Assembly: GCA_903881565.1 (NCBI GenBank) | Contig: CAIRTR010000057.1 | Span: 1 to 36,803, forward strand | Source of the DNA: Oligoflexia bacterium | Lineage (GTDB): Bacteria > Bdellovibrionota > UBA1018 | Reading direction: 5' to 3' | DNA: 36,803 bases | Shown here: one piece after another, positions 1 to 14,460 of the stretch | How positions within the stretch are numbered: the first letter of the stretch is position 1 | Layout of the letters: every line of letters starts with the position of its first letter | Position numbers and translations under genes: made by a program | The notes under the pieces: generated by a model | The model's database searches: none | Seen by the model: only the letters and a program-made list of their open reading frames with translations | What the model was told of the DNA's origin: nothing

Positions 1-117
1 CTTACTATTACCCACAGATTTTGAACCGATTTGCCGATGCACATCCTGCCGAGAGGTCAAAAAGGCGTTTCCACCCGCGCCAAATGGTTATGATCCCTGG
101 CTCACCGTCGCCTTTTC
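1..117 (-). repeat. Left inverted repeat of the IS element
   Basis: Positions 1-117 are the exact reverse complement of 1883-1999. Identity stops abruptly at 118 (c here, t expected from 1882). The minus strand therefore carries a second copy of the transposase C-terminal codons without the rest of the gene. Only 29 bp separate it from the stop codon of the DUF6788 gene. Confidence 0.9.
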
Positions 118-146
118 CCACCAAGTCGGATGAAGACCGACGAGGC

Positions 147-452
147 TCATTGTTTCGGTATTTGAGCTGAGTTTACCCAAGGTGCGTCCGAAATCGCCAT
201 TTTTAGAACGTCATCTATTCTCTTTTTGAAGCTATTGTAGCTGTGAATTCGCTTCCTACATTCAAGAGCAACTTCTTTGCTGATAGTTTTTGTTGTTCGT
301 TTTCCATCAATAAAGCCGGTCCATCTATAATAGGTTCCATGTAGTTTTGGCTTTTTTGACCAACAAATACACGACTTTTTCCCACATCTGCTTTTCGCAG
401 TAGATACACTTCCCGGCAATATTGGCTCTGTTATTTGAATTGTTATTTTCAT
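147..452 (-). CDS. DUF6788-like small protein carried by the IS element
   Basis: The gene encodes a 101-aa basic protein. It carries the family pattern GSVS...RCGKKSCIC...HGTYYRWTG followed by GKR and a conserved C-terminal helix region. From family knowledge, this matches the small DUF6788 proteins often found beside transposases and integrases; their function is not established. The CxKxxCxC cluster could bind a metal (inference). The gene is divergent from the transposase with an 80-bp gap that must contain both promoters. AAGGA lies immediately before the ATG and AGGAGA about 12 bases upstream. It ends 29 bp inside the left inverted repeat, so it is most likely an accessory gene of the element and not a host gene. 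Confidence 0.6.
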   Translation of the reverse strand: MKITIQITEPILPGSVSTAKSRCGKKSCICWSKKPKLHGTYYRWTGFIDGKRTTKTISKEVALECRKRIHSYNSFKKRIDDVLKMAISDAPWVNSAQIPKQ

Positions 453-531
453 TCCTTGCTATTTCTCCTGATGTAATCATACATTAGGATCTTTTAAATA
501 TCAACTGCCATTTTTGGAAAAATGAAAATTT

Positions 532-1992
532 ATGACAACTACTCGCCACGCCGGAAACTTAGGGAAAGACTGGGCTGCTAATGAATTTGGAGAATCTGAA
601 TTCGGTGATTCTCGGCTAAACGTTAGATTAGTGAATCTGGCTAATAGCTTTATAGAGTCGCCGCAGAGTCCAATTAATCAAAGTTGTAAATTCTGGCATG
701 AGAGTAAGGCCGCGTATCGCTTTTTTAAAAATGATAAAGTAACCGCCAAAAGAATTTTGGCGCCGCATATTCGACAAACCGTTATGCGTGCTGCGCAGGA
801 CCCCACTGTTTTGGTCATTCAGGATACCAGTTACATTTCTTATGCAGGACATAGAAAGACTAAAGGCCTGGGAATAATTCGCAGCGAATATCAAGGGGCG
901 GCCCAGGGGCTTGTCATGCACACATCGTTTGCCGTCAATTCGGAGGGAATCCCGCTGGGAATTGTGGATCAAAATATCTTCTCACGACAGCTTATGTCAA
1001 AAGCAAAAAAGGCTTTGCGAAAAAAGAGTGGCGGAACCCGACTGCTGTTGGAAGAAAAGGAGAGTATCCGTTGGCTAAATGGAGTTCGAAATACGGTCGA
1101 TGCGTTTCGCGATTCAAAGACCAAAGTGGTTACCGTCTGCGATCGAGAGGGGGATTTTTACGACCTTTACAAGTTTTCTCAAGAGATCAATACTTCGGTC
1201 CTCATTCGTGCTTCAAGTGACCGTAGAATCAATAAGTCTGTTCGCCGATCCAGACTTCCTGAGGATAAACTTTGGGGGCTTTTATCGAGACAGCCTTGCC
1301 AAGGAAAAATCGTTTTAGAACTTCCGCCAAAAGCAGATCGACAGGCGAGGGCTGCACACTTAGAGATTCGTTTTTCACCTCTAACAATGAATCCACCCAC
1401 AAACTACTACTTCCAGGTAAACAACGGCAAGAAAAAGACTTATCCGAAATTAAACGCAATCTACGTCAAAGAAGTTGGCGCACCAAAAGGTGAAGCCCCA
1501 CTTGAGTGGATGCTATTGACTGATCTGGAAGTGACAAATATTCATCAGGCCTTGGAAAAAATCAAATGGTACACGTACAGATGGAGAATTGAGATTTTTC
1601 ACAAAATTCTTAAATCTGGCTTACATGTTGAAAAATGCAGATTAAATACCGCCGATCGCCTTAAACGGTATTTAACGCTAATGAGCGTTATCGCCTGGAG
1701 ATTGTATTGGATAACGCTGATCAATAGAGCCACCCCAAAAATGCCGTGCACATGTCTCATTACAGAAAGGCAATGGAAACTCCTTTATCTGCAGATCCAT
1801 AAAAACCGCACACTTCCGAAAACAACGCCCAGTATTCGCGAAGTCACTCGTTGGATCGCTCAATTAGGCGGATTTCTAGCCAGAAAAGGCGACGGTGAGC
1901 CAGGGATCATAACCATTTGGCGCGGGTGGAAACGCCTTTTTGACCTCTCGGCAGGATGTGCATCGGCAAATCGGTTCAAAATCTGTGGGTAA
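532..1992 (+). CDS. IS4-family (IS50/Tn5-type) DDE transposase
   Basis: The protein has 486 aa, close to the 476 aa of Tn5 transposase, and probably catalyses cut-and-paste transposition of the surrounding element. The N-terminal DNA-binding part has the LGDSRLNxRL-like block (GDSRLNVRLVNLA, about 25-37) and the AYRFF motif (61-65). The DDE catalytic residues are visible as D98 (IQDTSYISY), D204 (VCDREGDFYDLY) and E354. E354 lies in a perfect YREK signature, Y347-R350-E354-K361. The C-terminal dimerisation part ends in GGFLARKGDGEPG and WRGWKRL, typical of the family. The last 36 or so codons lie inside the right inverted repeat. No frameshift is visible, so it looks active. Confidence 0.95.
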   Translation: MTTTRHAGNLGKDWAANEFGESEFGDSRLNVRLVNLANSFIESPQSPINQSCKFWHESKAAYRFFKNDKVTAKRILAPHIRQTVMRAAQDPTVLVIQDTSYISYAGHRKTKGLGIIRSEYQGAAQGLVMHTSFAVNSEGIPLGIVDQNIFSRQLMSKAKKALRKKSGGTRLLLEEKESIRWLNGVRNTVDAFRDSKTKVVTVCDREGDFYDLYKFSQEINTSVLIRASSDRRINKSVRRSRLPEDKLWGLLSRQPCQGKIVLELPPKADRQARAAHLEIRFSPLTMNPPTNYYFQVNNGKKKTYPKLNAIYVKEVGAPKGEAPLEWMLLTDLEVTNIHQALEKIKWYTYRWRIEIFHKILKSGLHVEKCRLNTADRLKRYLTLMSVIAWRLYWITLINRATPKMPCTCLITERQWKLLYLQIHKNRTLPKTTPSIREVTRWIAQLGGFLARKGDGEPGIITIWRGWKRLFDLSAGCASANRFKICG

Positions 1993-1999
1993 TAGTAAG
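1883..1999 (+). repeat. Right inverted repeat of the IS element
   Basis: This is the exact inverted copy of 1-117. It contains the final transposase codons (from about G in KGDGEPG), the stop codon (1990-1992) and 7 further bases. Because the coding sequence is conserved across the transposase family, the right copy is the likely source and the left copy the duplicate (inference). Confidence 0.9.
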
Positions 2000-5132: not shown

Positions 5133-6389
5133 TTATCTCCCTGGCGCGGCGGTGGTTTTCTCAGCGGCCTTCGCTTGGGCGTGCTCGGTGTTTGTTGGTT
5201 TTTCAGACGCCGAGTTTTGGACGAGTCGGCTGAGCATTCGGCAGGCGTCGGGGTTCTCGCCCAATTTTGATTTTTCTTTTGTCTTACCGTCAATCACATT
5301 GAAGAGGTGTTGCGCCTGGGTCCGGAGTCGCGCCTCGTTGGCAGGCGTGAGACGATCTTTGTTCTTGGCGAGAAACTCTGTGAGTTTTCGAGCTTGAGTC
5401 AACGCCTGGCCTTGAAGAAGAAGGTTGCGGATTGCCGAATGGGTCTCTTTGATTTCGCTATCGGGCATCGTGTCTTGATTCTGGGCGAGCCATTGTTGTT
5501 TTTCGCAGGCCTGTCTCACAGGTTCTCTTTGAGAAGGGACGATCACTAATCCGTGAAAAAATACACCGAATTGGGGCGATCGAAAAGTCATTACAAATAA
5601 CCCGTCTCCGAGAGGAGCGAATCGGGCGTCTCCGGTGACTCCTCCGTCCCTATAACTTGCGTCTCCGGTGTTGGATTCGGTCAGTTTGAACGTATTCATT
5701 TTCTTCGGAACGAGTTCGTAGGTTCGGCTATCCTTTGAATAGTCCGAGTTTCCCTGGATCATAATCGTTTTGGTATCGGCGGCGTAAAGATTAAGGCGGT
5801 TGTGCCACTCCTTGGTTTTTTCATTGAATCCGCATGATACCGGTAGATGCGGCTCAATACGTGAAGAAGCTGGATTTAGTGGAAAAGCAATGAGTTCTGA
5901 AAAATCCACAGGGTGGGGATTCTTATCATAAGCTCGAGCCAAGGCCTTGATCACTTCAATGTCTTTGACGTCTTTAGGACATTGGTGGGTGGTCGCAAAA
6001 TCCTTGGTCACTTCACGGGTGAGTTTTGCCTCCGGTTGAGCTTGCGCTGCGAGCTGCTCGGGAGTGAGGTATTTTTCGCATTCAGGCAAAGTGGGGGAGC
6101 CAGGCTTAAAGGAGAGTTTGCACATGCAAGCAGTCCATCCCTCCATATCGCCTTTGTCAGTAAACTCATCGCACTCGAATTTTGCAGGAGTGTGGGCGCC
6201 TTCGATATAGGTGTAGCTGGGGCGATGAATTTCTCCTTCGATTAATTGCTCACTAAAATCATAAAATTTTGAAATGTCGGGGCCTTTGGATTTACCTTTC
6301 GCACTCGCGGGGGTTGCGCCTGCGAGCATGATGGAAAACAAGAGTACGCCCATTAGCAGTGATCTAGAGCTGAAATGTATGGTTCTCAT
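5133..6389 (-). CDS. Exported protein of unknown function, first gene of a three-gene operon
   Basis: The protein is about 418 aa with a clear signal peptide (hydrophobic SLLMGVLLFSIMLAGA then ASA-KG). Two in-frame ATGs exist. AGGAG is one base from the first (6395) but seven from the second (6389), so 6389 is chosen. The mature part has paired cysteines (FECDEF, TACMCK, PECEKY, HQCPKD, SCGFN, RQACEK, DACRML), suggesting an oxidised periplasmic or surface protein. The C-terminal third is helical and charged. No family is recognised. It precedes the papain-like gene by only 6 bp. The region upstream (6390-6610) shows no gene and no convincing promoter. Confidence 0.75.
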   Translation of the reverse strand: MRTIHFSSRSLLMGVLLFSIMLAGATPASAKGKSKGPDISKFYDFSEQLIEGEIHRPSYTYIEGAHTPAKFECDEFTDKGDMEGWTACMCKLSFKPGSPTLPECEKYLTPEQLAAQAQPEAKLTREVTKDFATTHQCPKDVKDIEVIKALARAYDKNPHPVDFSELIAFPLNPASSRIEPHLPVSCGFNEKTKEWHNRLNLYAADTKTIMIQGNSDYSKDSRTYELVPKKMNTFKLTESNTGDASYRDGGVTGDARFAPLGDGLFVMTFRSPQFGVFFHGLVIVPSQREPVRQACEKQQWLAQNQDTMPDSEIKETHSAIRNLLLQGQALTQARKLTEFLAKNKDRLTPANEARLRTQAQHLFNVIDGKTKEKSKLGENPDACRMLSRLVQNSASEKPTNTEHAQAKAAEKTTAAPGR

Positions 6390-7733: not shown

Positions 7734-8177
7734 CTACTTCAAAACGTATCTGCAGTTCGTCAGCTTCTCGATTCCGTCAATCGTCGATCGCGAAACGTAA
7801 GTCAACCAATTATCAAAGCGAGAGATGCGCGTGTTTTCAACGACGCGATGGCCGGGACCGTAAAGCATCGTGCTTGAATAGCGATAGTTGTAGATGAGCT
7901 CAAAGTCTTCAGCGGCAGAGTCTTTCCCTTTATTGATGTGTTCGAAAACTTTTGATTCGCGCGCTTTGCTCTGGGACTCATCGAAAAATGAGAAATCCAA
8001 GACCGTCTCGCCATTGCGATCGGCGGCTTCAACGTTTAGGGAAGAGGGGCAGTTCACGTTCGTAGCGCCTTCAAGCGCGTACTCGCCTGCGAAGTGAGAA
8101 GGCGTGGCTGCAAAAGCCGAAAAAGATCCCAGGGTGAGTGCACAGACAAGTGCAAGACGGGTGAGGGTAGAAATCAT
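7734..8177 (-). CDS. Small secreted protein of unknown function
   Basis: The protein has 147 aa when started at the ATG at 8177, which has a strong TAAGGAG six bases upstream. A longer frame to 8264 has no such signal and is rejected. Residues 1-23 form a Sec signal peptide (LALVCALTLGSFSAFA-AT). The mature domain of about 124 aa starts HFAGEYALEG and has just two cysteines (NVNCPSS, LTNCRYVLK), which could form one disulfide linking its ends. This looks like a small beta-rich periplasmic domain, but no family is recognised. It ends 8 bp from the broken peptide ORF on the other strand. Confidence 0.7.
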   Translation of the reverse strand: MISTLTRLALVCALTLGSFSAFAATPSHFAGEYALEGATNVNCPSSLNVEAADRNGETVLDFSFFDESQSKARESKVFEHINKGKDSAAEDFELIYNYRYSSTMLYGPGHRVVENTRISRFDNWLTYVSRSTIDGIEKLTNCRYVLK

Positions 8178-8248: not shown

Positions 8249-8340
8249 CCACTGAGTTTCTCAAACAGCGAAGTTAAGTGTCTACCCTCCGGTAGGGTGG
8301 GGATGTAACTTCGCGATCTGAGAAGTTCCGTGCGTAGTGG
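8249..8340. other. Extended dyad structure (candidate structured RNA or palindromic element)
   Basis: A nested hairpin is visible by eye. 8249-8253 (ccact) pairs with 8336-8340. 8254-8263 pairs with 8319-8328, with two G-U pairs. The perfect 9-bp gcgaagtta (8268-8276) pairs with taacttcgc (8306-8314). A terminal accct/agggt stem (8284-8288/8294-8298) has a 5-base loop. It lies upstream of the promoter at 8384 and beyond the start of the minus-strand gene at 8177, so it is not clearly in either leader. Function unknown. Confidence 0.5.
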
Positions 8341-8383
8341 CAGTTCGGCGCCACGCGTACGGCAAAAGTACTTCTCTTTACTG

Positions 8384-8412: not shown

Positions 8413-8434
8413 CCACCTCACAATGAGGTGTCCT

Positions 8435-8830
8435 ATGAAAACCAAGTTTTTAGGTTTTGCGCTCGCAGTGTTTTGCATGATTTCAGCAGTGGCTCCCGCG
8501 ATGGCGTCTGAAGAGCCCTCGCCTTTTTACCCCGGCCAGGTTCAGCTTTGCGGAGCCAATCTTGATCAAAGTGGTGAAGGAGTGGCGTATGAAATGCTCA
8601 TAAATTTCACAGAAGATCTTGAAGGCACTCGATCCACCTGCAAGGTGGCCTACTACTACGGCTTTGAGTACGGCAGCACCACGGGACACCGCGGAATGTT
8701 CTCCCTTGTCCCCCAATCCACAAAAGGCCTTAAGTGTTCAGTAGTTTCAAAGGGAATGACGCGACAAATGTCGGTGGCTGATTCTAAAGGCTCCGCACTC
8801 GTTAGCGGCTGCAAAGTCGAAATTAAGTAG
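8435..8830 (+). CDS. Small secreted cysteine-containing protein of unknown function
   Basis: The protein has 131 aa. The start at 8435 is chosen over the in-frame ATG at 8423 because GAGGTG lies just upstream and because the promoter at 8384-8412 would place the transcript start too near 8423. Residues 1-24 are a signal peptide (FLGFALAVFCMISAVAPAMA-SE). The mature part has four cysteines (LCGAN, STCKV, LKCSVV, SGCKV), enough for two disulfides. It is similar in style, though not visibly in sequence, to the small secreted protein encoded divergently at 7734-8177. No known domain is recognised. A periplasmic or extracellular location is likely. Confidence 0.7.
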   Translation: MKTKFLGFALAVFCMISAVAPAMASEEPSPFYPGQVQLCGANLDQSGEGVAYEMLINFTEDLEGTRSTCKVAYYYGFEYGSTTGHRGMFSLVPQSTKGLKCSVVSKGMTRQMSVADSKGSALVSGCKVEIK

Positions 8831-12865: not shown

Positions 12866-13907
12866 GTTGCCGCGTGCGCTGGGGCTTTGGTTTTCGCACC
12901 ACGCGCGTTACATGCCTTGGCGTGCCGAGCCTACCGCTTATCGCGTATGGGTTTCGGAGATCATGCTGCAGCAAACGCAAGTGGTGACGGTGATCCCTTA
13001 TTTTGAGCGCTTTTTGAAAAGGTTTCCTTCAGTCGAAAAACTAGCGCGCGCGGATGAAGAAGACGTGCTCTCGATGTGGTCGGGGTTGGGGTATTATTCA
13101 AGGGCCCGCAATCTTCACAAGGCTGCGCGTGTGATCGCGGAGAGCGGGATGCCCACGACGCGAACTGAGTGGCTAGAGTTGCCGGGAGTGGGTGAGTACA
13201 CGGCAGGTGCGGTTTGTTCGATAGCTTTAAATTTGGTGGAACCTATTTTGGATGGCAATGTTGAGCGCGTGCTTTCGCGCTTTCATCGTGTAGGTGTGGG
13301 GAAAAAGGGATTGGCGGGTTTTAAGCTGAGGCTTTGGGGGCTTTCACGGCAGTGGGTCGAGGTGGGAGCTGCGGCGGGTGTGGAGCCTCGGGCTCTCAAT
13401 CAAGCATTGATGGAATTGGGCGCGTTGGTGTGTGAACCTCGAGCTCCGCGTTGTGCGTCTTGTCCACTTCGGGCGAGTTGCGGGGCGTTTCGGGCGGGAG
13501 TTGTGGATCGATTTCCTCCGGTGGTGAAACGAGCAAAAGTGATTGATGTTTCTGAGACCGTCCATTTGTTTTTTTGTGAGGGTCGCGTCTTGGTCCAGAA
13601 ACGCGAGAAGGGCCAGTGGCGCGCGGGGCTCTGGGATTTGCCTTTAGCCGTGCCTTCGTGGGTGAAGAAGTTGCGGCCGCAAAGTGCGGGCGAGGAGATC
13701 CACACCCAACATATCGTGACTCATCATCGGATTAAGCGTACGACCCGGGTTTGGAAGCTTGCACGTGCGTCGGGGCCCGCGCCTGCGGGGTATGCGTGGG
13801 TTACTCCTTTGAAGCCCGAGCTTGCGACGGGCGCGGCGTTTGGCAAATGTGTGCGCAAGGCGCTTGCGACGCTGTCTTTAAAAGGCGGTCCAAAACTCGT
13901 TAGTTAA
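12846..13907 (+). CDS. mutY: A/G-specific adenine DNA glycosylase MutY
   Basis: MutY removes adenine mispaired with 8-oxoguanine in base-excision repair. The 353-aa protein, of usual length, has the helix-hairpin-helix LPGVGEYTAGAV (about 112-123). The catalytic residues are E38 (SEIMLQQTQV) and D136 (ILDGNVERV). A 4Fe-4S cluster loop is spaced C196-x6-C203-x2-C206-x5-C212. The C-terminal NUDIX-like 8-oxoG recognition domain begins near residue 230 (TVHLFFCEGRVLVQKRE). The start overlaps dusC by 20 bp, implying translational coupling. The last three codons and stop (13896-13907) lie inside the left 34-bp inverted repeat of the following XRE cassette, so the very C-terminus may have been altered by that element. 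Confidence 0.95.
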   Translation: MLKLNAELPRALGLWFSHHARYMPWRAEPTAYRVWVSEIMLQQTQVVTVIPYFERFLKRFPSVEKLARADEEDVLSMWSGLGYYSRARNLHKAARVIAESGMPTTRTEWLELPGVGEYTAGAVCSIALNLVEPILDGNVERVLSRFHRVGVGKKGLAGFKLRLWGLSRQWVEVGAAAGVEPRALNQALMELGALVCEPRAPRCASCPLRASCGAFRAGVVDRFPPVVKRAKVIDVSETVHLFFCEGRVLVQKREKGQWRAGLWDLPLAVPSWVKKLRPQSAGEEIHTQHIVTHHRIKRTTRVWKLARASGPAPAGYAWVTPLKPELATGAAFGKCVRKALATLSLKGGPKLVS

Positions 13908-13928
13908 TTGGTGGAATAGAGTGGAAAT
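13895..13928 (+). repeat. Left 34-bp inverted repeat flanking the XRE gene
   Basis: It matches the reverse complement of 14427-14460 at 32 of 34 positions (differences at 13899 and 13920). It overlaps the mutY stop and lies 32 bp before the XRE start codon. It contains GGTGGAA and AGTGGAA spaced one helical turn (10 bp) apart, which looks like a protein-binding site. Confidence 0.85.
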
Positions 13929-13960
13929 GTGAGGGCGCACTTTTTGCTAAGCGAGCGCCT

Positions 13961-14455
13961 ATGCAGAACACAAAAGCAAATCGCTACCCGGGTCCCAAGA
14001 TCTTGATTTCGCGCTCTGGAGATATGAAGCGAACGATGATTGAGCTGGTAAATCATATGGTCAACGTTCGAATCACCATCACCTCGAAGTTGTCGCCTCG
14101 CCATCGCCGAACATTTGCCTTACATTTCCTCAGGTTGTTTCGTCCTTGGGTCGAAAGACATTTCCGGGCGTCTCTGGTGCATGAGGCGCGTATCATTGAT
14201 TTTCGGAAAAGTGAGGAACGAGGACTTCCACTTTTTAAGAGCGCAAGATGTGGGGATGCGCTTCAACGGGGGTATGAAATTCGGATGCGTCGTCTTGATC
14301 TAGGATGGACGATTCGAGATCTTGCGAAAGCTTCGGGGGTTAATTATTCTCATATTGGAGCCTTGGAGCGAGGTTTGTACAAGCCGCGAGCTCTTACGGT
14401 TGAGAAGTTAAGAAAGGCCTTGGGGGATTTCCACCCTATTCCACCAATTAACTAA
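13961..14455 (+). CDS. XRE-type helix-turn-helix protein inside an inverted-repeat cassette
   Basis: The 164-aa protein is strongly basic. Residues about 104-155 form a Cro/C1-type HTH: GYEIRMRRLDLGWTIRDLAK, then ASGVNYSHIGALERG, with a recognition helix followed by LTVEKLRKAL. The first 100 residues (IELVNHMVNVRITIT, RTFALHFLRLFRPWVERHF) are not recognised and may be a separate DNA- or RNA-binding or oligomerisation part. Upstream of the ATG at 13961 there is only weak purine content; an alternative ATG at 14024 has GGAG but only two bases of spacing. The last codons and stop are encoded within the right inverted repeat. The protein may bind the GGTGGAA repeats that flank its own gene (inference). 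It could be a regulator, or the DNA-binding protein of a minimal mobile cassette. Confidence 0.65.
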   Translation: MQNTKANRYPGPKILISRSGDMKRTMIELVNHMVNVRITITSKLSPRHRRTFALHFLRLFRPWVERHFRASLVHEARIIDFRKSEERGLPLFKSARCGDALQRGYEIRMRRLDLGWTIRDLAKASGVNYSHIGALERGLYKPRALTVEKLRKALGDFHPIPPIN

Positions 14456-14460
14456 TGAGT
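14427..14460 (-). repeat. Right 34-bp inverted repeat flanking the XRE gene
   Basis: This is the inverted copy of 13895-13928 with two mismatches. It carries two perfect TTCCACC units 10 bp apart and the XRE stop codon. Identity ends sharply on the inner side at 14427. No convincing target-site duplication is seen outside the pair. Confidence 0.85.

Follow-up and report, generated by a model that had tools for sequence, protein, structure and literature searches.

In canonical REP/BIME systems, all REPs are described as having a GT(A/G)G head and a GC-rich palindrome (PMC2817692), the GT(A/G)G being located at the foot (PMC2817692, PMC3733652). The residues with which E. coli TnpA-REP reads this tag include W94, Q95, E100, H101 and R104, the role of W94 being called unclear (PMC6006769). 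In Pseudomonas fluorescens SBW25, two inverted short palindromic repeats and their spacer are reported to move as one unit, the REPIN, each family being tied to its own REP-associated tyrosine transposase, or RAYT (PMC3116915). TIRYTs, or TIRtrons, are in turn described as RAYT-related tyrosine transposases flanked by repeats that are unrelated to GTAG REPs and in some cases self-complementary (PMC3733652). According to the same account, some of these TIR repeats are dispersed and moderately abundant, several different flanking repeats occur per genome in Stenotrophomonas maltophilia and Koribacter, and many TIRs carry a GGGGWSAS motif. Most TIRYTs are placed in TnpA-Y1 subclass 2.1, which is characterised by C-terminal HTH-like extensions, and the 2018 survey of the superfamily reports no REP-like sequences beside subclass 2.1 genes (PMC6006769). 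Here we analyse a hairpin in a 36,803-nucleotide stretch of the genome of an Oligoflexia bacterium (the window, contig C57). Our reading, to which we assign a probability of about 0.88, is that the hairpin is a copy of a REPIN/TIR-repeat-like miniature non-autonomous element mobilised in trans by a RAYT. As far as the published accounts compared here describe them, the TIRYT/TIRtron class (PMC3733652) is the nearest counterpart of the element and its transposase.

The hairpin at 8249-8340 is real and far stronger than expected by chance. Folded as RNA, the + strand gave -41.3 kcal/mol, where shuffles averaged -23.7 (z -5.34), and the - strand gave -34.1 kcal/mol (z -5.28), with 0 of 200 shuffles as good in either case; relative to their own shuffles the two strands fold about equally (z about -5.3 each). 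The preliminary description had seen here a nested hairpin too regular for chance, with a perfect 9-bp core, and both points hold: on the + strand, GCGAAGTTA at 8268-8276 pairs in the fold with TAACTTCGC at 8306-8314. The borders drawn at 8249 and 8340 did not survive, as the repeated unit is the 73 bp at 8255-8327 (+ strand), for which a gap-free alignment with 15 other copies was obtained. The additional outer pairs that join 8249-8254 to 8335-8340 lie beyond this unit and are private to the window copy, because mean pairwise identity among 18 copies drops from 76% inside the element to about 25% in the flanks, as expected by chance. Immediately adjoining the repeat, at 8330-8363, another small hairpin (GCGTAGTGGC...GCCACGCGTACG) was seen by eye, which is outside the repeat family.

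The 73-bp unit consists of two inverted 21-bp arms around a 31-bp centre. The left arm (8255-8275, + strand) has the family consensus AACTTCTCAAAGAGCGAAGTT and reads AGTTTCTCAAACAGCGAAGTT in the window; the right arm (8307-8327, - strand) is inverted with respect to the left one, reads AACTTCGCGATCTGAGAAGTT on the + strand and is an exact match to AACTTCGCNNTCTGAGAAGTT. Each arm is itself an imperfect palindrome, in which AACTTC and GAAGTT enclose 9 bases. Across 16 copies there is no variation in most of these inner 9 bases, in TTC of the outer hexamer, or in 7 of the 9 pairs of the inner helix. The centre, with a small apical hairpin CTACCCTCCGGTAGGGTGG at 8282-8300 (+ strand; columns 28-46 of alignment A1), is less conserved, with 82% of its alignment cells paired as compared to 94% in the outer helix.

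The preliminary description had called the hairpin an orphan and had proposed a search for further copies in the same genome. Such copies were found when the genome (4.56 Mb, 323 contigs) was searched, many of them already with 151 bases around the hairpin. A covariance model built from 16 copies matched 18 distinct places at E ≤ 4.1e-11, among them the 16 copies used for its construction, and 9 weaker places up to E 1; the window copy scored 89.3 bits (E 2.6e-20), being itself part of the training set. Alignment A1 was made from 16 of these strong copies, since the other two, on contigs C260 and C146, were recognised as full copies later, and a half-copy on C130, cut by the contig end and near-identical to a copy on C275, was excluded from the alignments. 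All 16 aligned copies are exactly 73 bp long with zero indels, and in every one of them both arms stand at fixed spacing. Outside the listed 73-bp copies, the only arm matches with at most 2 mismatches in this genome were at C299:27114 and in the copy cut by the C130 contig end. In 17 of 18 copies, no more than half of the bases lie in ORFs of at least 100 aa, as compared to 13.6% of random placements (20,000, same loci). The exception, on C146, falls close to the N-terminus predicted for a long frame, which may in truth begin beyond the copy. Convergent, divergent and tandem gene pairs are adjoined alike. Intergenic copies with unrelated flanks and neighbours in mixed orientation form the pattern of an inserted DNA repeat and not of a dedicated regulator; the palindromic repeat unit, one of the options named earlier for this hairpin, was thus the right one.

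In the window, the element occupies an intergenic region between two divergent genes, each for a small, presumably secreted protein. One of them (7734-8177, - strand) is listed as an ORF from an upstream TTG, and its ATG at 8177, as read from the sequence, is 77 bp from the element; the other (8423-8830, + strand; likely start ATG at 8435) begins 95-107 bp from it. Neither has a Pfam match. With such neighbours and a very stable fold, the hairpin might be taken for a structured RNA acting on the divergent genes, that is, a small RNA, a riboswitch-like leader or an mRNA-stabilising hairpin, and REPs of other bacteria are reported to be able to work at the RNA level (PMC3733652). The same stability is, however, found on both strands, and the comparison of copies gave the RNA reading no support. 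Among 16 copies, 0 of 27 named pairs were altered on both sides, 12 of the 27 never varying and hence being uninformative; where paired positions vary, pairing is not restored by compensation, and covariation scored lower (0.064) than the shuffled mean (0.082). A lack of compensatory change had been named beforehand, along with the lack of a transcript covering the site, as what would refute the interpretation, and the outcome for compensatory change goes against the RNA reading. No Rfam family reached its gathering score in the window; a weak match to sR55 (18.6 bits against a gathering score of 35; E 0.16) was set aside as chance. No promoter-like or terminator-like site was found near the hairpin. 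Since compensatory change is absent and the copies have neighbours in every orientation, with similar copies beside different genes at other places in the genome, the evidence does not support a conserved structured RNA; the small RNA and the regulatory structure on a longer transcript, both suggested at the outset, are very unlikely. For the two adjoining genes, the window copy is most likely without a function of its own. Explaining this hairpin, which looked like an orphan RNA, as a mobile DNA repeat keeps a false small RNA out of the annotation. Some letters of the element resemble GTTRRRY, a motif of integron attC sites; an attC-like site was considered but seems improbable, the copies being single, dispersed and linked to an HUH transposase.

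That transposase was met on contig C239, where two 73-bp copies, 1,004 bp apart, bracket one open frame (5341-6276) of 312 residues as read and 291 from the likely start, its stop codon overlapping the end of one flanking copy. The protein matched the NCBIfam model REP_Tyr_transpos with E 5.7e-10 and 39 bits, below the curated cut-off of 80, and had no Pfam match at E ≤ 1. Its best PDB match was E. coli TnpA-REP (4ER8, E 2.4e-4), aligned over the core, and a 16-member profile of homologues likewise matched 4ER8 over the core (E 6.4e-5). Alignment A3 contains 16 of 20 homologue loci: L090 was left out as identical to L082; L086 and L089 were omitted since the motif filter gave no frame for them, and L088 since it had no upstream start codon. 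The NCBIfam model was matched by all 16 aligned homologues, and all of them keep the H-x-H (HUH) motif and the catalytic tyrosine. Eleven other loci of the same genome, e.g. L055-L062, gave weak matches to PF01797 (Y1_Tnp); none of them is the C239 gene or any of the three RAYTs of this genome.

A short, non-coding, dispersed and intergenic element with terminal inverted repeats could also be a MITE that goes back to a conventional DDE insertion sequence. Copies were, however, found to bracket just one transposase gene, which encodes a Y1/HUH enzyme, and a search with arms within 3 mismatches found no DDE transposase bracketed by them. Adjacent equal k-mers, as would mark a target-site duplication, occurred at 1 of 18 copies for k = 2 and at 0 of 18 for k = 3-9, which also speaks against a DDE origin; we regard such an origin as highly improbable. 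Y1 enzymes are not expected to leave a target-site duplication, and its absence agrees with such an enzyme but proves little.

The element lacks the tag by which canonical REPs are known. Of 18 copies, only one has GT[AG]G within 8 nt outside either foot, the other 17 lacking it. As a candidate internal tag, C[TC]AC at columns 28-31 was seen in 13 of 18 copies, but in neither copy beside the C239 gene, and is not claimed; CTG in the left flank (5 of 18) and T at right-flank position +2 (12 of 18) were post hoc sightings and are not claimed either. In the transposases, the tag-reading positions, located by ungapped spacing from the 4ER8 alignment, retain W in 16 of 16 homologues and Q in 10 of 16, while E100, H101 and R104 are kept in 0 of 16; the position of E100, counted by spacing from the tyrosine, is occupied by proline in 15 of 16. 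The loss of the GT[AG]G tag and the loss of the residues that would read it are mutually consistent. All 16 homologues have 148-199 residues after the tyrosine. HTH_23 was detected in 2 of 16 (best E 0.0099) and HTH_31 in 1 of 16 (E 3.1e-7), the C239 protein having neither.

The same genome encodes two further RAYT paralogues, on contigs C275 and C55, which are 60% and 59% identical to the C239 protein, respectively. The C275 gene is flanked by a 106-nt repeat of its own (91% identity between the two repeats) and the C55 gene by a 79-nt repeat of its own (95%). Both repeats are palindromes different from the window family, and both recur at other, dispersed places in the genome, the C275 repeat in 4 further copies (E ≤ 1.2e-9) and the C55 repeat in 2 (E ≤ 3e-14). 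Each of the three paralogous transposases is thus accompanied by a private palindrome family. A first palindrome finder was too strict, returning nothing for 3 of 5 transposase loci, and was replaced by repeat search and pairwise comparison. With these, paired repeats of at least 50 nt were found to flank 9 of the 20 homologue loci, the 3 from this genome included and L082 and L090 being the same sequence; 11 of 20 were without them. The paired flanking units are whole palindromes in direct orientation at 8 of the 9 loci, and the repeat of L085 forms only a weak hairpin (-8.4 kcal/mol).

Among 35 genomes of the taxonomic family, the window palindrome model matched 3, namely this genome, G014 and G022; only in these 3 does the identity of a transposase to the C239 protein reach 49% or more. 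In five others, whose homologues are more distant (31-47%), the model had no match. The transposases of G014 and G022 are flanked by paired palindromes too, which have diverged from the window family, and both genomes have palindrome matches on other contigs as well. Against model R1, the palindrome of the 60%-identical paralogue at C275 scored 17.5 bits and that of the 56%-identical G014/G022 transposases 33.7 bits; the degree of palindrome similarity is therefore no simple function of protein similarity. The G014 and G022 genomes are both incomplete and share 5,454 bp contigs that are identical over the 2,455 bases compared. These contigs, carrying loci L063 (G022:C130) and L064 (G014:C41), come from genomes assigned to two different genera; their identity is likely to reflect cross-binning or a very recent transfer, and one of the two genomes may be mis-binned in the shared contig. 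G014 also has dispersed, strongly palindromic units of its own, AACTTCGCAAAAAGTGAAG...CTTCACTTTTTGCGAAGTT, at L066 2248-2316 and L067 1751-1820, with a private sequence.

In a DNA search of 58 genomes, this one included, no relative matched below E 0.0177, and the searches brought up no genome of the same genus. The arm pattern had 2 matches in a wider collection of genome contigs, about the number that we estimate for chance with 19 fixed bases, and no second arm was present within 150 bases on each side of either; in viral contigs there were 0 matches. The strong invariance of the inner 9-bp arms and of the outer TTC would suit a repeated binding site for a host protein (nucleoid, chromosome-organising or recombinase), kept by selection and not spread by transposition. 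The distribution argues otherwise: copies occur in this genome and, diverged, in two relatives only, and are missing from the other 32 of 35 genomes of the taxonomic family; presence follows the transposase gene, and each paralogous transposase has its own palindrome. We give the binding-site explanation almost no weight and prefer the RAYT-mobilised element.

By analogy with REPINs and with E. coli TnpA-REP, such an element would form a long hairpin whenever it is single-stranded, as may happen on the lagging strand. The RAYT encoded at C239 would recognise the paired 21-bp arms, nick in trans with its HUH/tyrosine site, and move or copy the 73-bp unit into mostly intergenic DNA. We infer that the C239 transposase acts on these copies by a single-strand route, that the element itself transposes, and that the family still moves or did so recently. 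The copies share only about 76% identity with one another, too little to demonstrate recent activity.

The element resembles the REPINs of SBW25 (PMC3116915) in having two inverted short palindromic repeats and a spacer that would move as one unit, in the potential for an ssDNA hairpin, in a spacing of tens of bases with a less conserved spacer, in intergenic location and in the link of each family to its own RAYT. In contrast to the REPINs described there, it is present in about 20 copies and not in hundreds, its 21-bp arms are without a GT[AG]G tag, and its RAYT has a long C-terminal extension. A transposase gene between two dispersed palindromic repeats is an arrangement also reported for REP/BIME (PMC2817692), from which the present element differs by having no GT(A/G)G head at its foot. 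The transposases are, like the TIRYTs described in PMC3733652, flanked by repeats of dispersed families unrelated to GTAG REPs; as compared to that description, the flanking units are whole palindromes, in direct orientation at most of the loci with paired repeats of at least 50 nt. The RAYT-like proteins are among the longest, carry a C-terminal extension and have a different motif in the GTAG-reading region, as is described for subclass 2.1 (PMC6006769), to which the homologues may belong. Unlike the subclass 2.1 genes of that survey, the present genes are flanked by paired hairpins. The locus provides a clear example of REPIN-like palindromes that have no tag and are tied to RAYTs lacking the GTAG-reading residues. 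We tentatively suggest, while holding it somewhat short of an even chance, that a RAYT-like lineage without these residues reads long untagged palindromes by arm sequence, perhaps via the C-terminal extension, and that each gene duplication in one genome re-tuned the specificity, leaving three paralogues with three private, non-overlapping element populations. With three paralogues and as many private palindromes, this one genome lends itself to the study of tag-free DNA recognition. A literature search on RAYT together with Bdellovibrio had nothing relevant among the titles listed.

Other inverted repeats were noticed in the course of the analysis. The first 1,999 positions of the window (1-1999) contain a Tn5/IS50-like transposase gene (ORF 532-1992; Tnp_DNA_bind and Dimer_Tnp_Tn5). 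A perfect 117-nt inverted repeat (1-117 and 1883-1999) takes in the 3' end of this gene and may represent two inverted insertion-sequence copies or an assembly fold-back, the window starting at a contig end. At L068 (G000:C314, 1503-2341), two weak inverted palindrome copies with matching extended flanks bracket an open frame that by eye looks like a GNAT acetyltransferase and not a transposase, possibly forming a composite unit. Further along the window, an HTH_3 gene (13961-14455) stands between the arms of a 34-nt inverted repeat (94%) at 13895-14460, the downstream arm overlapping the 3' end of the gene.
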